From positions 1 to 33,258 of the forward strand of contig CADAHQ010000014.1 in NCBI GenBank assembly GCA_902787715.1: a stretch of 33,258 bases of DNA. Reading direction: 5' to 3'. The translations under genes and the position numbers were made by a program. The notes below the pieces were generated by a model. That model worked only from the letters and a program-made list of their open reading frames with translations, ran no database searches and had not been told where the DNA came from. Positions 3 through 32,267 of the stretch are shown one piece after another (the stretch's first letter is position 1; each line of letters starts with the position of its first letter). The stretch comes from an uncultured Lachnospiraceae bacterium. GTDB taxonomy: Bacteria > Bacillota > Clostridia > Lachnospirales > Lachnospiraceae.

Positions 3-482
3 AAGTATGCCGTGGATCACGGCATGGAGATCGGTATCCATGCATGGACGCACTCCAAGTACTACGACAGCATTTCCGAAGAAGAGTACAAGGAAGAGGT
101 CAACAAGACCTACGAAGCAATTCTGCAGTACACCGGCGTTGCTCCGCGACTTCTGCGTGCACCGGGCGGACGTATCACAAAGAAACAGATTGCAGAGAGC
201 CCTCTCTATGTCATCAACTGGAACGTGGACTCCGAGGACTGGAAATTAAAGGGACGCAGCACCGAAGCGGCGAAGAAGGAGAACGTAGACAAGATTGTGA
301 ACAACGTTCTCACCCACACCCGCAAGGGCAGCATCATCCTGATGCATGAAATTTACTACAATTCGTACGATGCCTTCTGCCGGATTGTGGACGAGCTGAC
401 CAAGAAGGGCTTCGAGTTCGTGACCGTGTCCGAACTGCTCGGAGAGGCACCTCTCGGAAAGCAGTATTACAATCGTCCGTAA
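3..482 (+). CDS. Polysaccharide deacetylase (NodB/CE4 family), 3' part only
   Basis: This is the last 159 residues of a protein whose start lies left of the window. The visible part carries the C-terminal half of a carbohydrate esterase 4 (NodB) domain: the metal-binding pair in HAWTH (residues about 14-18 of the fragment), the RAPGG motif, the aspartate/tryptophan motif in NVDSEDW, and the LMHE motif near the end that normally supplies the catalytic histidine. CE4 enzymes remove N- or O-acetyl groups from peptidoglycan, chitin-like or xylan substrates. Firmicute members with this layout are usually secreted or membrane-anchored and act on the wall, but the N-terminus that would show a signal peptide is missing. 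The next gene has its own promoter, so this is probably the end of a transcription unit, although I see no clear terminator after it. Family is clear; substrate is not. Confidence 0.88.
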   Translation, partial: KYAVDHGMEIGIHAWTHSKYYDSISEEEYKEEVNKTYEAILQYTGVAPRLLRAPGGRITKKQIAESPLYVINWNVDSEDWKLKGRSTEAAKKENVDKIVNNVLTHTRKGSIILMHEIYYNSYDAFCRIVDELTKKGFEFVTVSELLGEAPLGKQYYNRP

Positions 483-506
483 GCGCTGAACGGCGATTCA
501 TTTCCT

Positions 507-535
507 TTGCATTTTCCGCATGAATATGCTATGAT
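507..535 (+). promoter_or_regulatory. Sigma-A type promoter for the sensor/EAL gene
   Basis: TTGCAT (507-512) and TATGAT (530-535) are separated by 17 bp, with the gene start at 621. This gives an untranslated leader of roughly 80 nt. The match to TTGACA/TATAAT is moderate. It implies that transcription of the sensor, CotH and possibly amidase genes begins here. Confidence 0.55.
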
Positions 536-576: not shown

Positions 577-620
577 GGTAAACCTCATGCGCTCATGCGC
601 AAACAGGCGGGAGGTTGCAA

Positions 621-3600
621 ATGGATAAGAGGAGAAGAATAGTCGGAGTGCTGATTTCCGACGCGCATCACAAATTTTTTCGGCAGTGCCTGTATTCCGT
701 ACAGAAGGAACTGCTGGCGAACAATATGGACGTTGTCACGTTCACGACGCTGTGCAAACCGGGCATGAACAAGGATTACTCCGACGCGGAGTGCTCCGTT
801 TACGAAGTCATGAACCTCCGGGAGCTGGACGGTTTGATTGTGTACCCGATAACCTTCTACATGGACGCCCAGAAAGAGGTCTTGAGCCGGATTCAGAAAG
901 AATTTGACAAGCCCGTAGTATGCCTGGAGAGCGAGAACGAGTACGGTTTTCCGACGGTTCCCTTCGGGCGTGAGAACGGGATGGAGCTTTTGGTTGACCA
1001 TCTGACGACGCGGCACGGCGCGAAGCGCATCATGCTGGTCGCCGGCAACCGTGATACAGATGTTTACTTCGACCGCGCTTTGCAGGAGGATTTTCTGAAG
1101 GCGATGGCGAAGCACGGTCTGGAGGCGGACCCGGAGAAGATTTTCGAGGGCGGCTTCTGGATTCATTCGGGGGAGGAGATTGCGAAGCAACTGTGCGAGA
1201 GTCCGGAAGGTCTTCCGGATGCCGTTGTCTGTGTCTCTGATGAGTGTGCGGCCGCGCTTGTGAGCGCCTTTGAGAGCCGCGGCGTACGTGTCCCTGAGGA
1301 TATCCTCGTGGCCGGTTACGGCGCGGACGAGGACCGGAAGGTTGCGGAGTTTCTGTCCGTGTACCGCGATCCGGTGGAGATGTCCAAGAATGCCGTGCGC
1401 ATGTTGCTTGCCCTGATGGAGGGCAAGAGTCATTTTCTGCTGCAACACCGCAGCGGATGCTGCCGTCTGATTCCGGGCAGTTCCTGCGGGTGCAGCCGTC
1501 ATTCCAGCGCTTCTTACGCGAACCTCTGGCTGGAGTCCATTCGCGATGAGAATGAGCGATTCCCCTCCGAATTCAATTTCATGAGCGAAGAAGTTACCAA
1601 CGTTGCCGATTTCCGCGAGAGCTTAAAGGCAGTTGACAATTTTTCCCATTACCTCGGGGACTACGAGGCTTTCTACCTGTGCCTGAACGAAAATGCCATG
1701 CACTCGGTGGAGGAGATGGGCCATCTTACGGAGAAGGTGGAGCTTGCCATCTGCCATGAGAAGGACAACGGCGTCTACGGCGACGGCCGCATGTTCGACC
1801 GCTCCTTCATGATTCCCGCACTGTACCGCGAGTGCCCGTATCCGCGGGTTTTCTATGTGGCATCGATTCATTTCATGAACCGCGTGCTGGGCTACATGGT
1901 GTTGTCCTACGGCAAGAGCCCGGAGGTGCACTCCCGATGGCTGCGCGGCTGGACGAGAAAGCTTGCCCACTGCCTGGAGACCCAGCGCCGGTGGTATATG
2001 TATGATGATATGACCGTCCAGAACCAGGTGCGTGACGCCATGACCGGTCTCTACAACTACAAGGGCTACATCAGCGCTCTGACGGACATCTACCGCCACA
2101 TGGGCAGCCCTTCCGTGAAGCTTCGCGTAATCGCCCTGGATATCGAGCGGTTCTCGACCATCAACGATACCTACGGGCGTGATGAGGGCAACGAGGTTCT
2201 TTTAGCCCTTACGAAGATGATTCAGGCGACCATGAACGACCGCGATGTGTGTGCAAGATTCGGTAATGATGAGTTTGTCATCGCGGGATTTTACGATACC
2301 GACAACGACGCCCAGGGGCTTCTTTCCAACCTCAAGGCGCGTCTTCAGACCTACAACAATTTCAACAAAAAATCCTACAGCGTGGATATCGTGTACGCGA
2401 AGATCTGCGAGGATGTGACGGACGAGGCCAGCATCGCCGCAATCACGGCGGATGCCCTTGCCGACAAGAAGACCTACAAGGAGAACAAGCGCCGCGGCAA
2501 GGGCGGCCAGGAGTACTTCAACGAGGAGGAGCGCACGGAGGTCACCCGCGTTCTGGATGACAACCTGCTCACCTATTACTTCCAGCCGATCATCAACGCA
2601 AAGACCGGCGAGGTGGACTCCTACGAGGCCCTGATGCGCACGGAGACGGACAGCACCATGAAGCCCGAGGTCATCCTTCGCCACGCGGAGGCTCTGGACC
2701 GCCTCTACGACGTGGAGCGGCACACGTTCTTCAACACGCTGGCCCTTTACCAGAAGCATCATGAGGAGCTGCAGGGGAAGAAGCTGTTTATCAACAGTAT
2801 CCCCAGCGTTCTCATCAACGATAAGGATTTTGAGAAGTTGGCCGTTTCCTACAAGGATATCCTGGAGAATATCGTCATCGAGTTCACCGAGCAGACGGAG
2901 GCAACCCAGGAGCAGCTGCAGGTCATCAAGAAGCGTTGCTCCGATCACGGCATGCGCCTTGCCATCGACGACTACGGCGCCGGCTATTCCAATATTTCGA
3001 ATCTCTTGAACTACGCGCCCGACTATGTCAAGATCGACCGTGTTCTGATTTCGGGCGTGGACGAGGACAACAAGAAGCAGTATTTTGTGGCAAATACGGT
3101 TGAATTTGCCCACGAGAACGGCTTCCTCGCCCTGGCCGAGGGCGTGGAGACGAAGGAGGAGCTGAACACCGTAATCCGGCTCGGCGTCGACTTGATTCAG
3201 GGCTATTACACGGGACGCCCCCAGGCAGGATTCCTTAAGGAGATTCCGAAGGACATGGCGGACGATATCGTGCGGATGAACCTCCGCAATATCAACACCC
3301 GTCAGAAGAAGACATACATCATCGGCAACGAATCGGAAGTGGCGATTCTGCCTCTGGCAATCAACGGTTACACCGAGCTTGTGGTGCCGAAACCGGACTG
3401 CATCCTGGTGGGAGACCAGAAGCATCCGGCGGACATCGTGATTCATATTCCGGACCACACCGTAAGTCGCATTCACCTGCGGGGTGTGCAGCTTGAGGCG
3501 TACCAGAGACGCCCCTGTATCGAGATCGGCAACCGGAGCGATGTCACCCTGGTGATTGAGGGCAATGTGACACTGCAGGACACGGGCATCCGCGTTCCCG

Positions 3601-4346
3601 AGAGCTCGTCCCTCACCATCGAAGGCAAGGGCAAGCTGTTTATCAACGTAAGCTCCGACCGGAGCTTCGCCATCGGCGGCGACTGTAACCAGTCCGTCGG
3701 GCGGATTACGGTCAACATGGACGGCGAGATCACCATCCACGGCGACGGCAGGGAGTGCGTGGGCATCGGCGGCGGATATATCCGGGACACCGGGCTCCGC
3801 ATCGAGCGCTGCAAGAACATTTACCTGACCATGACCGGAGAGCAGATTGTGGGCATCGGTTCGTCCAGCAATACGGCTTCCGTATTTGTGCAAAATACAA
3901 GAATTCTGGCGCGGGTTAACTCCGACCGCGGAGTCGCCATCGGCTCCGTCGAAGGAGAGGCGCGCGTGGATGCGCGAAATGCCCAAATCAGTTGCATCTC
4001 CTCCGGCGACACGCAGGTGGCCATCGGTACGCTTCTGCACGACAAGATGCAGGCACGGCTTGTGGACTGCGAGTTCCAGACGGAGATGAAAGCGAAGCGG
4101 TGCGTGGGCATCGGAAACCGCGGCGGCATCGCCAACGTCCGGATCTTAGGGTCCACGGTGGGCGTGCGCTGTGAAGGTTCGTCAGTCATCGGCGTCGGTT
4201 CCGGCGTCGGGCAGGGCCGCGGCCAGTTTGAGACATCGACATTCAATTTCCGACTGGCGTCGGCTTCCAAGACGCCCTTCGGTTATGAGGAGGAGGCCAT
4301 GAGCTTCCTGCAATGTGTAACACCTGAAGAAGAGGAGACGAGATAA
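621..4346 (+). CDS. LacI-type sensor / GGDEF / EAL / beta-helix fusion protein (probable c-di-GMP phosphodiesterase)
   Basis: This 1241-residue protein has no signal peptide or membrane segment, so it is probably cytoplasmic. Residues about 5-275 look like the ligand-binding half of a LacI regulator (periplasmic-binding fold) without the DNA-binding head. Residues about 290-460 are an unassigned linker or sensor. Residues about 465-635 are a GGDEF domain with altered residues: GNDEF for GGDEF, and EGNEVL where a GD pair is usual. No RxxD inhibitory site is visible. Residues about 640-890 are an EAL domain whose expected residues are all visible: EALMR (about 667), the Asn of FINS, EFTE, DDYGAGYSN (about 782), VKIDR, AEGVET and QGYYTGRP. 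It should hydrolyse c-di-GMP. Residues about 895-1241 are a repeat region with recurring V(A/G)IG motifs, read as a parallel beta-helix. The ATG at 621 is preferred because GGGAGG at 609-614 is 6 nt upstream; a TTG at 615 abuts that site. The CotH gene follows after 4 nt. Confidence 0.85.
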   Translation: MDKRRRIVGVLISDAHHKFFRQCLYSVQKELLANNMDVVTFTTLCKPGMNKDYSDAECSVYEVMNLRELDGLIVYPITFYMDAQKEVLSRIQKEFDKPVVCLESENEYGFPTVPFGRENGMELLVDHLTTRHGAKRIMLVAGNRDTDVYFDRALQEDFLKAMAKHGLEADPEKIFEGGFWIHSGEEIAKQLCESPEGLPDAVVCVSDECAAALVSAFESRGVRVPEDILVAGYGADEDRKVAEFLSVYRDPVEMSKNAVRMLLALMEGKSHFLLQHRSGCCRLIPGSSCGCSRHSSASYANLWLESIRDENERFPSEFNFMSEEVTNVADFRESLKAVDNFSHYLGDYEAFYLCLNENAMHSVEEMGHLTEKVELAICHEKDNGVYGDGRMFDRSFMIPALYRECPYPRVFYVASIHFMNRVLGYMVLSYGKSPEVHSRWLRGWTRKLAHCLETQRRWYMYDDMTVQNQVRDAMTGLYNYKGYISALTDIYRHMGSPSVKLRVIALDIERFSTINDTYGRDEGNEVLLALTKMIQATMNDRDVCARFGNDEFVIAGFYDTDNDAQGLLSNLKARLQTYNNFNKKSYSVDIVYAKICEDVTDEASIAAITADALADKKTYKENKRRGKGGQEYFNEEERTEVTRVLDDNLLTYYFQPIINAKTGEVDSYEALMRTETDSTMKPEVILRHAEALDRLYDVERHTFFNTLALYQKHHEELQGKKLFINSIPSVLINDKDFEKLAVSYKDILENIVIEFTEQTEATQEQLQVIKKRCSDHGMRLAIDDYGAGYSNISNLLNYAPDYVKIDRVLISGVDEDNKKQYFVANTVEFAHENGFLALAEGVETKEELNTVIRLGVDLIQGYYTGRPQAGFLKEIPKDMADDIVRMNLRNINTRQKKTYIIGNESEVAILPLAINGYTELVVPKPDCILVGDQKHPADIVIHIPDHTVSRIHLRGVQLEAYQRRPCIEIGNRSDVTLVIEGNVTLQDTGIRVPESSSLTIEGKGKLFINVSSDRSFAIGGDCNQSVGRITVNMDGEITIHGDGRECVGIGGGYIRDTGLRIERCKNIYLTMTGEQIVGIGSSSNTASVFVQNTRILARVNSDRGVAIGSVEGEARVDARNAQISCISSGDTQVAIGTLLHDKMQARLVDCEFQTEMKAKRCVGIGNRGGIANVRILGSTVGVRCEGSSVIGVGSGVGQGRGQFETSTFNFRLASASKTPFGYEEEAMSFLQCVTPEEEETR
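3644..4270 (+). repeat. About seven protein-level repeats of 27-29 residues (VGIG beta-helix) inside the sensor/EAL gene
   Basis: The C-terminal part of the encoded protein contains successive units, each with a strand-like segment, then AIGG, VGIGGG, VGIG, VAIG, VAIG, VGIG or IGVG, a glycine-rich turn, and a second strand. Spacing between the IG motifs is about 27-29 residues. The DNA copies have diverged, so the repeat shows only in the protein. Comparable IGGG repeats are known to me from large surface proteins of gut Firmicutes. Here they are attached to a protein without export signals. Confidence 0.7.
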
Positions 4347-4350
4347 TCCC

Positions 4351-6465
4351 ATGAAGATGCATTCGTACAAAAGGATTCTTCTTGTGAGTCTGCTGCTTGC
4401 GCTTTTGGTCGCAGTGGCGGGAGCATACGCGGAAGGAGAGGACGAACCGCCGGCAGCGGAGCCGGAAGTTCCGACCATGTCGCCGGGACAGGGCTTCTAC
4501 AAGGACGCGGTCAAGCTTGAACTCTCCGCACCGGAAGGAGCCACCATCTACTATACCCAGGACGGTTCCACGCCGGTTCCGGGAAACCCGTCCACGCTGG
4601 TGTACAAGAGCCCGATCTGGCTGGAGCGAAACGCCAAGGATGAGAACGGCATACCCAGACCCCGCCTCGTGCGTTGCATCGCAGTTCTCGCCGATGGCAC
4701 CAGGACTCCGGAGGTGGACGGAACCTACTTCGTGGGGCCTGAATTTTACGATTTGTATTCCGTGCCGATCTGGTCGCTGGTAACGGATGAGAAAAATCTG
4801 TACGACGAGAAGACCGGTATCTTCAAAAATTACTCCAAGCGCGGTAAAGACTGGGAGCGCCCGGTGAATGTGACATGTTTCGTGGACGGCGTTGCTGTGC
4901 TGTCTCAAAATGCCGGCATGCGCGTGCACGGTGCCGCAAGCCGCGGTCACCGTATCAAGTCCATGCGTCTGTACGCCCGCGCCGAGTACGACACGTGCAG
5001 CAAATTCAACTACCCCTTCTTCGAGGAGGGGTCCATCAGCACCGCCAACGACGAGAACGGCGACCCGATTGACGGCTACAAGCGCCTGGTTCTCCGCAAC
5101 GGCGGCAACGAGGGTCCCGCGGGCGACAACACCATGTTCCGCGACGTCCTCACCCACTATCTGATGGATGACACGGAGGTTGCCCACCAGGGCGCGCGCC
5201 CCGTGATTGTGTACTTAAACGGAAAGCTTTACGGCTTCTTCAATCTGCAGGAGCGGATTGACGAGCATTACATCAAAGAGCACTACGATGTCAAGGACGA
5301 GGACTGCGCCATCTACGAGTACATGTACGACGGCCGCGGCGCCATGAATCTGACCGTGGATGCAGCTACCGACGCTGTCGCGAAGGAGCAGTCGACATGG
5401 TTCACCAAGGCGTATTCCTACGTCACCAAGAACAGCTTAAAGAAGGATGATGTCTACGCCAAGGCGAAGGAGTATTTCGACATCGACAACCTGGTCGATT
5501 ACTTCTGCATCCAGGTGTTTTGCGCCAACGAGGACTGGCCGGGCAACAACTGCAAGGCGTGGCGCTATCTTGGGACGCCAAACGAGAACCCCGGACAGGA
5601 CGGAAAGATCCGCTTCATCCTCTACGATACCGAGTATGCATGGGGTCTGTACGGCCGTAACTCCCGTCTGGACACCCTGAAGCAGCTGATGACCGCGGGC
5701 GGCAAATTCCACCCTTACCAGGATGGCGCCACCGCATTGTTCCGGTCCTTCATGGCGAACCAGGAGTTCCAGACGAAGTTCGTGAACCGGATGCTGCAGC
5801 TCATCAACTCCACCTATTCGCCGGAGAATCTGCTTGCAACCCTCGACTGGCTTGCAACCGAGTACAAGGACCTGGAGACCCTGCAGCGCGCCCGCATTAT
5901 GGCCGGTTCCCTGAAGCAGGGTATTGAATTCCTTCGCCCGTACCTGAATTCCCGCGGCAAATACGTCCGCGAGCAGCTGAAAACTTATTTCAACTTCGGC
6001 GGCTACCGGACCGTACATTTTGCGTTTGACGCCGAGGTGTCGACGCTGGTTGTGGACGGCGTGACCGTCACCAAGGACAGCCCGTACTACCACGACGGAG
6101 AGTATGTCGGCGTGTATGCCGCGAACCATCCGGTCAGCTGTGAGCTGACCATCGAGTCGAAGCAATATCTCTTTGATGCCATCGAGGGAGACGTGCCTGC
6201 GACGGTGATGGTTTGGACGATTCCGGGAGATGAGAAGCTTTCGCTGGGCGAGGAGCTCCATGAGGAGATCAAGCTGACGAAGCTTCCGGACCCGACGCCG
6301 ACCCCGACCCCGATTCCGTCACCGACGCCGATTCCGTCACCGACACCGACCATTGAGCCGACGATGCCGGAGCCTGAGACCAGCAATGTGGGATTTGTCG
6401 TTCTGTTTACTCTTGCGGCATCCCTTGTGGCAGGCACGGTGCTGATTGTGAAGTCGAGACGGTAA
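4351..6465 (+). CDS. CotH-type secreted protein kinase with N-terminal chitobiase-like domain and C-terminal membrane anchor
   Basis: 704 residues. A signal peptide (about 1-27, ending AYA) is followed by a chitobiase/hexosaminidase C-terminal type domain (GATIYYTQDGSTP, about 66-78), which often mediates carbohydrate binding. A CotH domain spans about 130-540, with MRVHGAASRG, a GFFNLQERIDEHYI segment, the catalytic-loop-like NEDWPGNN (about 392-399) and the metal-binding-like ILYDTEYAWG (about 425). Known CotH proteins are atypical kinases that phosphorylate spore-coat or surface proteins. A Pro/Thr/Ser linker (about 648-675) leads to one transmembrane helix and a short basic tail (KSRR). 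No LPxTG is visible, so it is tail-anchored rather than sortase-linked. GAGGAG at 4332-4337 lies inside the end of the upstream gene, 13 nt from the ATG. The 4-nt gap implies co-transcription with the c-di-GMP gene. The substrate is unknown. Confidence 0.85.
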   Translation: MKMHSYKRILLVSLLLALLVAVAGAYAEGEDEPPAAEPEVPTMSPGQGFYKDAVKLELSAPEGATIYYTQDGSTPVPGNPSTLVYKSPIWLERNAKDENGIPRPRLVRCIAVLADGTRTPEVDGTYFVGPEFYDLYSVPIWSLVTDEKNLYDEKTGIFKNYSKRGKDWERPVNVTCFVDGVAVLSQNAGMRVHGAASRGHRIKSMRLYARAEYDTCSKFNYPFFEEGSISTANDENGDPIDGYKRLVLRNGGNEGPAGDNTMFRDVLTHYLMDDTEVAHQGARPVIVYLNGKLYGFFNLQERIDEHYIKEHYDVKDEDCAIYEYMYDGRGAMNLTVDAATDAVAKEQSTWFTKAYSYVTKNSLKKDDVYAKAKEYFDIDNLVDYFCIQVFCANEDWPGNNCKAWRYLGTPNENPGQDGKIRFILYDTEYAWGLYGRNSRLDTLKQLMTAGGKFHPYQDGATALFRSFMANQEFQTKFVNRMLQLINSTYSPENLLATLDWLATEYKDLETLQRARIMAGSLKQGIEFLRPYLNSRGKYVREQLKTYFNFGGYRTVHFAFDAEVSTLVVDGVTVTKDSPYYHDGEYVGVYAANHPVSCELTIESKQYLFDAIEGDVPATVMVWTIPGDEKLSLGEELHEEIKLTKLPDPTPTPTPIPSPTPIPSPTPTIEPTMPEPETSNVGFVVLFTLAASLVAGTVLIVKSRR

Positions 6466-6475
6466 TTCCGTTTAT

Positions 6476-6507
6476 TGCGGACCCGGGGTACCCCGCAGAC
6501 CGCTTTT
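6476..6507 (+). terminator. Weak terminator or intercistronic hairpin after the CotH gene
   Basis: TGCGG pairs with CCGCA (6476-6480 with 6493-6497) around a GC-rich core that can itself fold (CGGGGTACCCCG). An alternative outer pairing, GCGG with CCGC, is followed by only four T residues. Termination may be partial, leaving some read-through into the amidase gene. Confidence 0.35.
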
Positions 6508-6523
6508 GAGGGAGATGAGATTC

Positions 6524-7390
6524 ATGAGAAAACTGAGACTTTCGGCGGCTTTGTTCTTTTTCGCAGTCGCTCTGTGTGCCTGCGCAAAGAAGCCGAAGGA
6601 CAATGAAATCGATTACTACACCAAGGTCGGCAGCTATGCGGAGCCGACGGAAGGTGTCTACGAGGCCGGAGAGAAGGACCTCGAGCTTTTGGGCGAGAAC
6701 CCTTCCACAGTGAAGCCAAGCGGCGGCGTCACCACCACACCGACGCCGACACCGGTGCCGCACTATGTGGTGGTGATTGACGCGGGTCACGGCGGTTCCC
6801 AGACCGGTGCTTCCTACGACGGCCGGGTGGAGAAGGATGTCAACCTGAAGGTGGCGTCCATGGTGAAGGAGTATCTTTCCACCCACTATGAAAACGTGGA
6901 TGTGTACATGACCCGCACGGAGGACAAGGGCCTCGCGAAGGATGTTGCCGACGACCTCCGGATGCGCGTGGAATTTGCCGCGGAGAAGCAGGCGGACATC
7001 TTGGTGAGCTTCCACTTCAACTCCTCGGACAAGCATTCCCGGAACGGCTCCATGGTCTGCATCTCCAAGCAGCCCCAGGTGCGCGAAGGCTCGGAACAGC
7101 TCGCCAAATGCATCCTCGCCCGTCTTGCATCCCTTGGCCTGAAAAACAACGGGCCGTACCTTCGGGACAGCAACGACATGAAGGATGAGAACGGCGTGGC
7201 GCTTGACTATTACGCCATCCCCAGACACGGTGCCGCCCACAATCTGATTGCGGTCATTGTGGAGAGCTGCTACATGGACAACAAGACCGACATCCCTTAC
7301 ATGAAGGATGACGCCGCCCTGACCGTCTTAGCGGAGCAGGAAGCCCTCGGAATCATGGAGTTCCTGACGCAGTACTATGTGAAGCAGTGA
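6524..7390 (+). CDS. N-acetylmuramoyl-L-alanine amidase (Amidase_3), lipoprotein
   Basis: 288 residues. A lipoprotein signal ends in LCAC with the acylated Cys at about residue 20, so the enzyme sits on the outer face of the membrane. A TP-rich linker (TTTPTPTPVP, about 72-82) precedes the Amidase_3 domain (about 84-285). Zinc and catalytic motifs are visible: IDAGHGG, GRVEKDVN (Glu), SFHFN and VESCYMDN (catalytic Glu). It cleaves the amide bond between MurNAc and L-Ala of the stem peptide. The ATG at 6524 is chosen because GAGGGAG (6508-6514) lies 9 nt upstream; a TTG at 6506 and an ATG at 6515 overlap or abut that site. A bidirectional terminator follows. It is distinct from the second amidase at 21441, which carries an extra SH3-like domain. 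Confidence 0.88.
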   Translation: MRKLRLSAALFFFAVALCACAKKPKDNEIDYYTKVGSYAEPTEGVYEAGEKDLELLGENPSTVKPSGGVTTTPTPTPVPHYVVVIDAGHGGSQTGASYDGRVEKDVNLKVASMVKEYLSTHYENVDVYMTRTEDKGLAKDVADDLRMRVEFAAEKQADILVSFHFNSSDKHSRNGSMVCISKQPQVREGSEQLAKCILARLASLGLKNNGPYLRDSNDMKDENGVALDYYAIPRHGAAHNLIAVIVESCYMDNKTDIPYMKDDAALTVLAEQEALGIMEFLTQYYVKQ

Positions 7391-11016: not shown

Positions 11017-12255
11017 ATGAGTGAAGAAATCACACGCACGACCGCGGCAGAAGCCGCCGAAGGGGCTTCTGCGGAAGCCCGAAACGACATCGCCGAAAAG
11101 GCCGTGGAGAACGTTTCTGCCGTGACGGAAGCCTTGGGGGATTCCGCGACGGAAGCGAAGGAAACCGCAGAGGACGTGAAGAAGGCTGTGGCGGAAGATG
11201 CCGCAGACGTCGAAGAGACCGTCTCCACCGTAGCAGATGCAGCGAAGAAAACCGTTGCCGACGAGGTAGATGACGAGGACGACTGGGAGGAACCGCTGGC
11301 GTCCGAGAAAATCTCCAAAGTGAGAGCACAGTCCGCAAGAAAGGTCGATCTGCCCGATTCTTACGGCGATGACTACGAGGATTATGACGACAGCATCCGC
11401 ATCTCGGACCACCCGCACACAAGCGCTTCCGAGGATGAGGACGAGGACGAGGAAGAGGATTCGATTCCTTCGGAGGAGGAATTTGAGGACGCTCTCCCTG
11501 AGGTTTACGCAAAAATCAGAAAGAATTCCATCTTAAAGGGTGTGCTTCCGGAGACGCCCGTGATTGTCTTTGACCACGTGACCAAGGAGTACGACGACGG
11601 TCCGGACGACGATGACAACCGCGCGCTCAAGGATGTTTCCTTCAAGATTAACAAGGGCGAATTTGTCTTTATCGTGGGCCCCAGCGGCTCCGGCAAGTCG
11701 ACACTGATCCGCCTTTTGATGCGCGAGATCCGCCCGACGGATGGTTCCATCTACATCGCGGGAACCGACCTTTCGAAGCTTCGGACCAACCAGGTCTGCA
11801 AATACCGCCGCAGCATCGGTATTGTGTTCCAGGATTTCCGGCTTCTCGAGGACCGCACGGTGTACGAGAACATCGCCTTCGCCCAGAAGGTCATCGGCGC
11901 ACCGTCCCGCAAGATTGCGAGAAATGTTTCGAAGATGTTATCGCTTGTCGGCCTTCGCAGCAAATACAAGAGCTACCCGAACAAGCTTTCCGGCGGTGAG
12001 CAGCAGAGAGTTGCTCTTGCCCGCGCGCTCATCAACAATCCCTTGATTCTTCTTGCGGACGAGCCAACCGGAAATCTCGACCCGAAGAACACCGAGGAGA
12101 TCATGGACCTTCTCGAAGAAATCAATATGCGCGGCACCACCGTGGTTGTTGTAACCCACAACCACGAGATTGTGGATGCGATGCAGAAGCGGGTCATCAT
12201 GCTGAATGAGGGTGTCGTTGTAGACGACAAGAAGGGAGGCTATAACCTTGGATAG
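11017..12255 (+). CDS. ftsE: Cell division ATP-binding protein FtsE with a long acidic N-terminal extension
   Basis: 412 residues against about 230 for ordinary FtsE. Residues about 1-180 are an acidic, Ala/Glu/Asp-rich, helix-prone and partly disordered stretch. The ABC ATPase follows: VIVFDHVTKEY (about 182), Walker A GPSGSGKST (about 221), signature LSGGEQQR (about 323), Walker B LLADEPTGNLD (about 345) and VVVVTHNHE (about 370). FtsE works with FtsX at the septum to activate a wall hydrolase, here probably the M23 protein two genes on. The ATG at 11017 has only a modest ribosome site (GAGGG about 12 nt upstream). An in-frame GTG at 11560, with GGAG 6 nt before it, would give a 231-residue protein that starts exactly where canonical FtsE does, so two forms are possible. 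It overlaps ftsX by 8 nt. Confidence 0.92.
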   Translation: MSEEITRTTAAEAAEGASAEARNDIAEKAVENVSAVTEALGDSATEAKETAEDVKKAVAEDAADVEETVSTVADAAKKTVADEVDDEDDWEEPLASEKISKVRAQSARKVDLPDSYGDDYEDYDDSIRISDHPHTSASEDEDEDEEEDSIPSEEEFEDALPEVYAKIRKNSILKGVLPETPVIVFDHVTKEYDDGPDDDDNRALKDVSFKINKGEFVFIVGPSGSGKSTLIRLLMREIRPTDGSIYIAGTDLSKLRTNQVCKYRRSIGIVFQDFRLLEDRTVYENIAFAQKVIGAPSRKIARNVSKMLSLVGLRSKYKSYPNKLSGGEQQRVALARALINNPLILLADEPTGNLDPKNTEEIMDLLEEINMRGTTVVVVTHNHEIVDAMQKRVIMLNEGVVVDDKKGGYNLG

Positions 12256-28685: not shown

Positions 28686-28730
28686 CTCAATGTTTGTGTT
28701 ACTTTGCAAGATTTACAAGAATTACAGGAA

Positions 28731-31700
28731 TTACTTGTAGAGCTCGACGAGCTTGAGCAGGTGCTGGTAACGCTCGTTCGCAACCTTCTCGGACTCGGCG
28801 AAGAGCTTCTCTGCACGCTCCGGGAACGGCTTGATGAGACGCGTGTAACGGGACTCGTTGTTGAGGAATTCCTGATACGTTCCATCGCCTTCCTTAGAAG
28901 TCAGAGTGAAAGGATTCTTGCCTTCTGCCTTGAGAGCAGGGTTGAAGGAGAAGAGATTCCAGTAGCCGGCCTTAACCGCCTTCTTCATCTCATCCTGGCA
29001 GTGGTTCATGCCACCCTTCGCAATTCCGTGGAGCTCGCAAGGAGCGTAGCCGATGATGAGCGAAGGACCGTTGTAAGCCTCAGCCTCCTGGAGAACCTTA
29101 ACTGCCTGAGCAGGGTTAGCACCCAGAGCGATCTGAGCAACATATACATAACCGTACTGCATAGCGATCTCGGAAAGGCTCTTCTTGCCGATCTCCTTAC
29201 CTGCAGCAGCGAACTGGCAAACCTCACCGATGTTGGAAGCCTTGGAAGCCTGACCACCGGTATTGGAGTACATCTCGGTATCGAATACCATTACGTTTAC
29301 GTTCTCGCCGGAAGCAAGTACGTGGTCAAGTCCGCCGTAACCGATATCGTAAGCCCAACCGTCACCACCGAAGATCCATACGGACTTCTTAGCGAGGTAA
29401 TCCTTCTTTGCAAGAACTTCCTTGCAAAGGTCGCAATCGCATTTCTCGAGCTCTGCAACCAACGCGTCGGTATCAGCGGAGTTCTTGAGAGTGTCATCCT
29501 TGGTAGCAAGGAAAGCAGCGATTGCAGCCTTCAGAGAATCGGAAGCATCACCTGCAGCGATCTCCTCGAGCTTTGCGATAGCCTGGTCACGAAGAACCTT
29601 CTGGCCGAGGTACATACCGAAGCCGTGCTCCGCATTGTCCTCGAAGAGGGAGTTGGACCAAGCCGGTCCCTTAAGGGAATCTTTGTTAACGGTGTAAGGC
29701 GAGGTAGCAGCAGGACCGCCCCAGATGGAGGAGCAACCGGTTGCATTGGAGATGTACATATGCTCGCCGAACAGCTGTGTAATCAAACGTGCGTAGGAAG
29801 TCTCGGCGCAGCCTGCGCAGGAGCCGGAGAACTCAAGGAGCGGCTGGTTGAACTGCGAACCCTTAACAGCGGGCATCGTGTCAGCAACAGCCTTCTTGCC
29901 TACGTTAGCAACAAGGTAGTCAAATACCGGCTGCTCAGCTGCCTGGGACTCCTGAGGAACCATAGCGATAGCAGCGGTAGGACATACGGTTACGCACTCG
30001 CCGCAGCCCATGCAGTCCAGAGGAGATACACTCATGGTGTACTTGTACTCGGAAGCCTTCGGCTTGGTGTCTGCAAGCTTGATGTTTGCAGGAGCAGCCT
30101 TAACCTCATCCTCGGAGAGAAGGAACGGACGAATCGTTGCGTGCGAGCAGACAAATGCACAGTTGTTACACTGAATACACTTTGCTGCATCCCACTCCGG
30201 AACGGTAACAGCGGTACCGCGCTTCTCGTAAGCGGAAGCACCGGTCTCGAACTGGCCGTCTGCGATATCCTTGAATGCGGATACCGGAAGGCTGTAACCA
30301 TCCATCAGGCCAATCGGGTCGAGAAGCTCGTTAACCATCTTAACCGTAGCAGGACGGCCGGCGCGCTCAACCTTCTTAGGTGCATCAACTGCGGTAGCCC
30401 AGTCAGCAGGAACGGTAACTTCGTGGATAGCATCTACACCGGCATCGATAGCCTTGTAGTTCATCTCAACGACAGCGTCACCCTTCTTAGCGTAGGACTT
30501 CTTAGCAGCTGCCTTCATGTACTCAACAGCCTCATCAATCGGCATAACGTTCGCAAGCTTGAAGAAAGCGGACTGCAAAATCGTGTTGGTTCTCTTGCCC
30601 ATACCGATCTCGATGGCCTTGTCGATAGCGTTGATCGTGTAAAGCTTGATGTTGTTCTTAGCGATGTACTGCTTAGCCTCAGCAGGCATGTGCTGATTCA
30701 GCTCTTCGTCAGACCACTGGCAGTTGATCATGAAGATTCCGCCCGGCTTAACATCCTGAACCATCTTGTAACCCTTGATTACGTAAGACGGGTTGTGGCA
30801 TGCAACGAAGTCAGCCTGGTTGATGTAGTAAGGGCTCTTGATGGGCTTGTCACCGAAACGAAGGTGGCTGATGGTGATACCACCGGTCTTCTTCGAGTCA
30901 TACTGGAAGTAAGCCTGGATGTATTTGTCGGTATGGTCACCGATAATCTTCGTGGAGTTCTTGTTAGCACCAACGGTACCGTCGCCGCCGAGACCCCAGA
31001 ACTTGCACTCAACCGTGCCCTTAGCCGAGGTGATGGGAGCGGGCTTAACCTCAGGAAGCGAAAGGTTCGTAACATCATCGACGATACCGATGGTGAAACG
31101 TGCCTTCGGAGCATCCTTGGCAAGCTCGGTGTAGATTGCGAAGATCGAGGAAGGAGCGGTGTCCTTGGAACCGAGACCGTAGCGGCCGCCGGAAAGGATC
31201 ACATCGTTCAAACCGGCCTCGCGGAGCGTAGTAGCAACATCGAGGTAGAGAGGCTCACCGAGGGAACCGGGCTCCTTCGTTCTGTCGAGAACGGCAATCT
31301 TCTTAACGGTCTTAGGAAGAACCTTAAGAAGAGCGGAGGAAACCCAAGGACGATACAGACGAACCTTTACAAGGCCGACCTTCTCGCCTGCAGCGGTGAG
31401 GTAGTCGATAACTTCCTCTGCAACGTCGCATACGGAACCCATCGCGATGATTACGCGATCGGCATCCTTAGCGCCGTAGTAGTTGAAGAGATCGTAGTCG
31501 GTACCGAGCTTCTCGTTAATCTTCTTCATGTACTTCTCAACAACAGCGGGAAGTGCGTCGTAAACCGAGTTGCAGGCCTCGCGGTGCTGGAAGAATACGT
31601 CGTCGTTCTCATGGGAACCGCGCATTGCAGGATGCTCAGGGTTCAGAGCGTGAGCACGGAAGTCAGCAACGGCATCCATGTTCGTCATCTCCTTGAGGTC

Positions 31701-32267
31701 CTCATAGTCCCAGAGCTCAATCTTCTGAATCTCATGGGAGGTACGGAAACCGTCGAAGAAGTTCAGGAACGGAACCTTGCCCTCGATTGCAGCGAGATGT
31801 GCAACAGGGGAGAGATCCATAACTTCCTGAGGATTGGACTCCGCCATCATGGCGAAACCGGTCTGACGGCACGCGTAAACGTCGCTGTGGTCACCGAAGA
31901 TGTTCAGGGACTGCGTAGCAACGCAACGTGCGGATACATCGAAAACACAAGGAAGCTGCTCAGCAGCAATCTTGTACATATTAGGGATCATCAAGAGAAG
32001 ACCCTGGGATGCGGTAAATGTAGTGGTGATAGCACCGGCAGCGAGGGAACCGTGAACGGTACCTGCAGCACCGGCTTCGGACTGCATCTCGGTTACCTTA
32101 ACGGTGTTGCCGAAGATGTTCTTGCGTCCTTCTGCAGACCACTGGTCGACACAGTCGGCCATCGGGCTGGAAGGTGTGATGGGGTAGATACCGGCGACTT
32201 CCGTAAACGCATAAGCTACGTGAGCGGCAGCGGTATTGCCATCCATTGACTGTTTCTTTCTAGCCAT
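28731..32267 (-). CDS. nifJ: Pyruvate:ferredoxin (flavodoxin) oxidoreductase, single-chain
   Basis: 1178 residues, the usual length for the homodimeric single-chain enzyme. It oxidises pyruvate and CoA to acetyl-CoA and CO2 and passes electrons to ferredoxin or flavodoxin, the core of anaerobic energy metabolism. Order along the chain: N-terminal pyrimidine-binding domain (VAGIYPITPSSPMAD, about 25-39), domain II, two 4Fe-4S ligand sets CIQCNNCAFVC (about 696) and CMGCGECVTVCP (about 749), the third-cluster segment SCAGCAET (about 816), and the TPP-binding domain with GDGWAYDIGYGG (about 968). A strong ribosome site (AAGGAGGA, about 9 nt before the ATG), a good promoter and two terminators mark a highly expressed single-gene unit. 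No TTA, CTA or TCA codon occurs over its length; this leaves an uninterrupted antisense frame across the gene, which is not a gene itself. Confidence 0.97.
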   Translation of the reverse strand: MARKKQSMDGNTAAAHVAYAFTEVAGIYPITPSSPMADCVDQWSAEGRKNIFGNTVKVTEMQSEAGAAGTVHGSLAAGAITTTFTASQGLLLMIPNMYKIAAEQLPCVFDVSARCVATQSLNIFGDHSDVYACRQTGFAMMAESNPQEVMDLSPVAHLAAIEGKVPFLNFFDGFRTSHEIQKIELWDYEDLKEMTNMDAVADFRAHALNPEHPAMRGSHENDDVFFQHREACNSVYDALPAVVEKYMKKINEKLGTDYDLFNYYGAKDADRVIIAMGSVCDVAEEVIDYLTAAGEKVGLVKVRLYRPWVSSALLKVLPKTVKKIAVLDRTKEPGSLGEPLYLDVATTLREAGLNDVILSGGRYGLGSKDTAPSSIFAIYTELAKDAPKARFTIGIVDDVTNLSLPEVKPAPITSAKGTVECKFWGLGGDGTVGANKNSTKIIGDHTDKYIQAYFQYDSKKTGGITISHLRFGDKPIKSPYYINQADFVACHNPSYVIKGYKMVQDVKPGGIFMINCQWSDEELNQHMPAEAKQYIAKNNIKLYTINAIDKAIEIGMGKRTNTILQSAFFKLANVMPIDEAVEYMKAAAKKSYAKKGDAVVEMNYKAIDAGVDAIHEVTVPADWATAVDAPKKVERAGRPATVKMVNELLDPIGLMDGYSLPVSAFKDIADGQFETGASAYEKRGTAVTVPEWDAAKCIQCNNCAFVCSHATIRPFLLSEDEVKAAPANIKLADTKPKASEYKYTMSVSPLDCMGCGECVTVCPTAAIAMVPQESQAAEQPVFDYLVANVGKKAVADTMPAVKGSQFNQPLLEFSGSCAGCAETSYARLITQLFGEHMYISNATGCSSIWGGPAATSPYTVNKDSLKGPAWSNSLFEDNAEHGFGMYLGQKVLRDQAIAKLEEIAAGDASDSLKAAIAAFLATKDDTLKNSADTDALVAELEKCDCDLCKEVLAKKDYLAKKSVWIFGGDGWAYDIGYGGLDHVLASGENVNVMVFDTEMYSNTGGQASKASNIGEVCQFAAAGKEIGKKSLSEIAMQYGYVYVAQIALGANPAQAVKVLQEAEAYNGPSLIIGYAPCELHGIAKGGMNHCQDEMKKAVKAGYWNLFSFNPALKAEGKNPFTLTSKEGDGTYQEFLNNESRYTRLIKPFPERAEKLFAESEKVANERYQHLLKLVELYK

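Follow-up and report, generated by a model that had tools for sequence, protein, structure and literature searches.

Of what use is a cytoplasmic β-helix to an EAL-type enzyme, and why should it be retained behind many different front ends? The question is raised by one gene in a 33,258-nucleotide stretch of DNA, called the window below (contig CADAHQ010000014.1 of assembly GCA_902787715.1, positions 1 to 33,258), from an uncultured rumen bacterium of the family Lachnospiraceae whose own genome is labelled G000 in our genome samples. The 1241-residue product joins a LacI-type ligand domain without a helix-turn-helix head, a degenerate GGDEF domain, an intact EAL domain and a C-terminal predicted β-helix, here called the tail; this is the architecture claimed by the original prediction, which was made from the letters alone, and Pfam, a residue survey and an AlphaFold 2 (AF2) model bear it out. 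A conserved linker domain at about residues 296-455 had escaped that first reading. We favour the view, to which we give a probability of roughly 0.6, that the protein is a ligand-gated phosphodiesterase of cyclic dimeric guanosine monophosphate (c-di-GMP) whose cytoplasmic β-helix docks or assembles the enzyme.

The EAL domain is the part best suited to comparison with known enzymes. Its Pfam match, at residues 641-867, is strong (PF00563, E 3.1e-50, 171.2 bits against a cut-off of 31.3), it aligns to solved EAL enzymes, and over residues 471-867 the best PDB match by sequence is PA0575 (5m3c). E669, N725, E754, E757, D783, D784, K804, E840 and Q860 are all present; judged by alignment, the set to which we assign catalytic and metal-binding roles in this protein (E of EAL, N, E, DD, K, E, Q) is complete. 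Throughout the 53 tail-bearing proteins that we collected, E669, R673, N725, E754, E757, D783, D784, E840, E843 and Q860 are invariant, and K804 is kept in 52. From sequence, phosphodiesterase activity is very probable. The GGDEF domain ahead of it (Pfam match at residues 471-585, E 7.5e-19) has the motif GNDEF, and the Asp of the guanine site, a position that we equate with its counterpart in PleD, is replaced by Asn. A profile of our own recognised GGDEF in 34 of the 53 family proteins, none with a perfect GG[DE]EF; the second place of the motif is Asn in 22 of these and Gly in two (TGDEF), and at the guanine site 23 have Asn and eight Asp. The GNDEF motif and the guanine-site Asn, with no perfect motif among the 34, rule out an active diguanylate cyclase. 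Control of c-di-GMP breakdown, as first proposed, is the natural reading of a LacI-type domain, a degenerate GGDEF and an intact EAL in one chain.

A protein with a degenerate GGDEF domain, an EAL domain and an output-like module also resembles LapD and FimX, both of which are among the structural matches of the EAL domain, and might by that likeness act as a receptor of c-di-GMP and not as an enzyme, its EAL domain binding the nucleotide and its β-helix acting as the effector that is released or presented. The EAL domains of LapD and FimX are degenerate, whereas the catalytic set here is kept in 52-53 of 53 proteins, and we consider a receptor very unlikely.

The layout belongs to a single intact gene (coordinates of this and other features in Table 1). 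Clear in-frame orthologs of the same layout are found in 20 of the 21 other genomes sampled from the genus, the copy in G011 being divergent; in G020 the contig ends within the tail, and the stops flagged in G006 and G017 lie at the very end of the tail, i.e. at the end of the gene. These orthologs answer the worry, voiced with the first reading, that a frame error had made one gene of two: frame error, merger and chimera are all ruled out, and with an EAL-tail junction recurring at 28 places in other genera the chance that the architecture is an artefact of annotation or assembly is negligible. The ATG is a likelier start than the TTG that lies in frame at 615. A consensus scan of positions 440-700 found one promoter-like site where 0.4 would be expected by chance; it matches the consensus at 9 of 12 positions, with TG preceding the second hexamer. 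Hydropathy revealed no membrane helix in the protein (highest 19-residue mean 1.32); with no transmembrane-like segment it should therefore be cytoplasmic, as had been claimed. No record among the best 5000 from plasmids covers the protein to 80% or more.

At the N-terminus, Pfam matches within residues 8-289 to Peripla_BP_3 (PF13377, E 6.5e-22) and Peripla_BP_1 (PF00532, E 1.1e-10), both above cut-off, are joined by matches to PDB chains and NCBIfam models of the LacI family. The match begins at residue 8 and no helix-turn-helix model exceeds its Pfam cut-off; the head is absent. Since the AF2 model of residues 1-640 is poor (mean predicted local distance difference test score, pLDDT, 49.6), the assignment of this domain rests on sequence profiles. 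The domain ends in an SCGC motif (C-G-C at residues 289-291, window positions 1485-1493), and a C-x-C near the same place occurs in all 41 family members that have the domain, in 40 as the pattern searched for and in L097 as CNC; it could serve a metal or redox role. The linker domain that follows has no Pfam match, and that it is GAF-like is a guess.

The tail is predicted to be a β-helix on the strength of an AF2 model and a sequence repeat. In the model of residues 631-1241, built from eight sequences, successive short strands run through the tail with pLDDT of 71-91 over residues 941-1190 (means of 10-residue blocks); modelling is poor for the tail's first 45 and last 50 residues and for residues 781-920. 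Structure prediction, suggested at the outset as a check, thus gave a β-solenoid at one end of the protein but a model too poor at the other to speak for or against a sugar-binding fold. Motifs of the form [VAI][GA]IG recur at residues 1047, 1077, 1105, 1133 and 1162, 28-30 residues apart. When the tail is compared with itself, lags of 28, 57 and 85 rank 5th, 7th and 9th of 142; we take this as a weak sign of a repeat, since lags that do not fit (117, 149, 39, 8, 69 and 97) are interspersed with them.

The tail could not be placed in a known Pfam or PDB family, sequence searches having given nothing above cut-off. A domain search, also suggested with the first reading, recognised the LacI-type, GGDEF and EAL domains but had no Pfam match over cut-off for residues 895-1241. 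Among 22 aligned tails no convincing match to a Pfam family came up, the best being DUF7305 at E 0.0043; Beta_helix_3 matched neither the window protein nor any of the 22 tails at E up to 1. The tail profile matched no PDB chain, and in a Foldseek search with the EAL-plus-tail model the 50 matches listed, out of 363, were all EAL structures, with none for the tail among them.

How firmly the tail is bound to the EAL domain becomes clear from its distribution. It was found in 24 of 99 genomes searched, including all 22 of the genus (G000 counted). In three overlapping samples, the tail profile matched 33 of 397 genomes of the family (24 with a full tail, G000 among them, eight with a partial match, and G027 cut by a contig end), 9 of 295 of the order (full tails solely in the Lachnospiraceae members G000, G239 and G682, the other six partial), and 3 of 398 of the phylum (G000, G239 and G1017, the last from another family of the same class). 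The 53 proteins collected comprise the window protein, 20 from the genus, one from G011, two from G023, one from G027, 26 from other genera, L125 (from G1017) and L126 (from G682); three are incomplete, L048 and L050 being cut in the tail and L096 at the start. In all 53 the EAL domain directly precedes the tail, at a distance of 8-13 residues (exactly 10 in 31), and at 28 places in other genera the junction is followed by a full tail. In the genomes searched, a full-length tail stands solely behind this clade of EAL domains.

What precedes the EAL domain varies. With L048 and L096 left aside, 51 front ends were classed: 32 are LacI-type with GGDEF, nine LacI-type without a recognised GGDEF (by our own profile, two of the nine also checked by Pfam), three short, with only about 80 residues ahead of the EAL domain, one GGDEF only, one GNAT, and five with a weak or unrecognised GGDEF, three of these with transmembrane-like segments. 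The sensor and the GGDEF domain are, as the sequences read, replaceable within the family; because the GGDEF can be missing and the front end can shrink to about 80 residues, EAL plus tail is its most persistent part. The GNAT acetyltransferase front end is that of L089, with which the cut protein L048 groups in the EAL tree.

The reverse does not hold: the idea that this EAL clade always carries a tail proved wrong. Among 150 Lachnospiraceae genomes searched with an EAL-clade profile, the 21 matches with E up to 2e-87 were 16 tail proteins (one cut), three proteins without a tail, one with a short tail and one cut by a contig end; 10 of the 17 weaker matches were examined and none had a tail. 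Of the 20 genus rows, six were kept, along with the window protein, in each of the two trees made. In the EAL tree a clade holding all tail-bearing rows has support of 100/98 against an outgroup of six rows, and some of its inner forks are weak. Since the three tail-less rows and the short-tail row sit inside this clade, one gain followed by losses is the simplest account, and the tree suggests one old gain with three or four losses or truncations. The tail family seems to have arisen once, in Lachnospiraceae, with one further genome belonging to another family.

These losses bear on the suggestion that the protein is an ordinary LacI-GGDEF-EAL phosphodiesterase in which a passive β-helix merely stabilises the fold or the EAL dimer. 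The three tail-less relatives, placed as losses in the tree, do share the type of front end and the EAL domain; elsewhere the tail persists down to 23% identity and through changes of front end, which exceeds expectation for a dispensable decoration, and we think a passive tail unlikely.

From the domain order, the intact EAL, the degenerate GGDEF and the conserved fusion with its spacing, we infer the following mechanism. The LacI-type domain would bind a ligand in the cytosol, with a sugar or a sugar phosphate as the likeliest candidate; the signal would travel by way of the linker and the GGDEF, itself catalytically dead, to the EAL domain, which would cut c-di-GMP to pGpG. The GGDEF might still bind guanosine triphosphate (GTP) as an allosteric input. 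The β-helix, at its near-fixed distance behind the EAL domain, would dock the enzyme to a partner or assemble several copies, and hydrolysis would therefore take place at a chosen site or only in the assembled state. Docking or assembly is our tentative preference for the tail, at somewhat less than even odds. There are precedents for parts of this scheme: PMC8835794 describes CC3396 (GEDEF) as a phosphodiesterase only, i.e. a degenerate GGDEF on an active EAL, and according to PMC10874727 two other enzymes showed higher EAL activity once GTP had bound to the GGDEF. A bolder variant is improbable: that a cytoplasmic β-solenoid with the repeats of surface proteins either stacks end to end, forming filaments or large assemblies, or holds on to a polymer inside the cell, so that a sugar-gated EAL makes a localised c-di-GMP sink, as an undescribed family.

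The tail might instead be a second sensor, of a cytoplasmic polymer or glycan such as a storage polysaccharide or wall precursor, reporting to an EAL domain that would then have two inputs. Partial matches to the tail point in this direction. Of 14, 11 were examinable as open frames; they are to secreted-type repeat proteins, eight of the frames beginning with a signal-peptide-like stretch (by eye), two being cut at the fetched start and one showing none, and Pfam Beta_helix_3 is present in two of the three scanned. Except among the closest relatives, conservation is lower in the tail than in the EAL domain, as is often the case for recognition surfaces; its short, fixed junction with the EAL domain would suit direct transfer of a signal; and in the genus the gene sits between polysaccharide deacetylase and amidase genes. 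Yet the invariant positions of the tail are mostly Gly and other turn-typical residues with no obvious pocket signature, and sequence searches found no solved or curated carbohydrate-binding relative. We judge a polymer sensor rather unlikely, and docking or assembly remains our preference.

The wider genome suggests where such an enzyme might act. It has six EAL and 10 GGDEF domain matches, no match to PilZ, and three c-di-GMP-I riboswitches (L147, L148 and L149, on contigs C18, C30 and C25). Each riboswitch sits at the start of a large open reading frame, the products having 1356, at least 595 and 2478 residues; all three contain BACON repeats, two also Listeria-Bacteroides repeats, and the first two open with signal-peptide-like stretches (by eye). 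Two further proteins of the genome combine a LacI-type sensor with an intact GGDEF and have no EAL. The gene for one is followed directly by a galactokinase gene, an arrangement present in all 20 genus loci fetched (our own and 19 others), every one with an intact GGDEF motif and an SCGC motif; the match in G015 is not among the 20, and the gene in G002 is split over two frames. Its product is likely a galactose-linked c-di-GMP synthase, and the second gene adjoins a GH43 gene and lies near a GH127 gene. The c-di-GMP made by these sugar-gene-linked proteins would be read by the riboswitches beside the large surface-type repeat proteins, the EAL-tail enzyme forming the opposing arm; together they suggest a circuit in which the supply of sugar determines the level of c-di-GMP, which in turn governs surface proteins. 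Sensors of LacI type beside sugar genes hint that such sensors read sugars, and the ligand of the window protein is probably of this type; the original prediction had said as much, and the help that the two GGDEF proteins lend it is indirect.

Several observations weigh against the mechanism we favour. Over sensor and GGDEF, identity between the window protein and the galactokinase-linked one is only 24%; the ligand of the window protein may therefore differ, or be no sugar. The guanine-site Asn (23 of 34) may abolish GTP binding, and no GTP-induced conformational change was detected in PA0285, according to PMC10874727. Four clade relatives have no tail or a short one, so that the tail is not needed for the base enzyme. 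Eleven of 18 other genus genomes yielded no c-di-GMP-I riboswitch in a search that scored 99 of 131-281 candidates per genome and may have missed some; we therefore do not generalise the riboswitch output beyond G000. Finally, the neighbours at 30 loci outside the genus give no hint of a sugar or a target, the recurring ones being a generic ABC-ATPase cluster at five loci and others at no more than three.

Table 1. Coordinates of the gene, its domains and other features (window positions unless a locus is named; loci L150 and L172 are on contig C2 of G000)
Feature	Position	Strand	Basis and remarks
Tail-bearing EAL protein gene	621-4346	+	1241 codons; ATG at 621, stop at 4346, no internal stop
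Ribosome-binding site GGGAGG	609-614	+	Precedes ATG 621; read from sequence
Candidate sigma-70-type promoter-like site	506..535	+	Between the upstream deacetylase gene and the EAL-tail gene
LacI/periplasmic-binding-protein-like ligand domain, residues 1-292	621..1496	+	Pfam PF13377, PF00532; conservation
Conserved linker domain, residues 296-455 (approximate)	1506..1985	+	Genus conservation; genus-profile matches in many relatives
Degenerate GGDEF domain, residues 456-630	1986..2510	+	Pfam PF00990; motif GNDEF at 2262-2276
EAL phosphodiesterase domain (predicted), residues 631-880	2511..3260	+	Pfam PF00563; solved EAL enzymes; residue survey
C-terminal domain, predicted β-helix (β-solenoid), residues 895-1241 (347 residues)	3303..4343	+	AF2 model; motif spacing of about 28-30 residues
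Polysaccharide deacetylase gene, 3' part	3..482	+	Pfam PF01522; upstream in 20/20 other genus loci with a clear ortholog
CotH-kinase-like protein gene	4351..6465	+	Pfam PF08757; 4 nucleotides after the stop; same place in 3/20 other genus loci
N-acetylmuramoyl-L-alanine amidase gene	6506..7390	+	Pfam PF01520; downstream in 19/20 other genus loci; the 20th is G020
Galactokinase-linked LacI-type sensor + intact GGDEF protein	L150:709-3826		Galactokinase gene directly after
Second LacI-type sensor + intact GGDEF protein	L172:4690-7976		Adjoins GH43 gene, near GH127 gene

The divergent copy in G011 has none of the deacetylase, CotH-like and amidase neighbours. At two loci of other genera (L047:6440-7954 and L096:2443-3915) the gene directly after that of the tail protein has a product that combines an intact GGDEF motif with a hydrophobic N-terminus. 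Elsewhere in the window, positions 11017-12255 encode an FtsE-like ATPase whose ABC domain is preceded by about 190 residues of acidic N-terminal extension, and an open frame of 1181 residues at 28704-32249 (+) mirrors a pyruvate:ferredoxin oxidoreductase gene on the opposite strand and is in itself no sign of a gene.

Among open-licence papers, as far as titles and the beginnings of abstracts tell, we found no report of a LacI-type/GGDEF/EAL fusion or of an EAL fused to a β-helix or β-solenoid, and little on c-di-GMP signalling in gut or rumen Lachnospiraceae (PMC6912079 and PMC9540692 included). The four-part architecture, called unusual at first sight, seems not to have been described, but it is not peculiar to the window and belongs to a family, mainly of Lachnospiraceae, from which 53 proteins were collected. 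To speak of an undescribed signalling system, as the original prediction did, is too strong for a known kind of enzyme with a newly found C-terminal domain; what is new is that domain and the combination in which it occurs. The EAL-tail proteins are apparently an undescribed enzyme family, in which what looks like a sensor of a cytosolic metabolite is coupled to the breakdown of c-di-GMP, and which brings in a conserved domain that lacks a curated model.

Set beside known systems, the window protein shares its ligand domain with LacI-family transcription factors, from which it differs in having no helix-turn-helix head and an EAL domain as output. Also comparable are the LacI-type sensor + GGDEF proteins of Lachnospiraceae, which have the same type of ligand domain with SCGC, a linker matched by the same profile, and a GGDEF; theirs is intact and they have neither EAL nor tail, making them predicted synthases where the window protein is a predicted hydrolase. 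LapD and FimX are receptors with a degenerate GGDEF-EAL layout; they share the GGDEF-EAL core, and their EAL structures are among the Foldseek matches listed, whereas the EAL domain of the window protein keeps its catalytic set. Secreted-type β-helix repeat proteins resemble the tail in their IGG-type repeats and are matched in part by its profile, over 67-175 positions at E of about 3e-6 to 6e-12; they look extracellular, while the tail, of about 350 residues, sits on proteins without a signal peptide. A likeness in function would be that to the EAL phosphodiesterases with degenerate GGDEF domains, CC3396 (GEDEF), PA0575 and PA0285, in which, according to PMC8835794 and PMC10874727, the EAL is active and the GGDEF non-productive, and GTP may in some cases act through it; to this plan the window protein adds a LacI-type front end and a C-terminal predicted β-helix, and its family can drop the GGDEF altogether.

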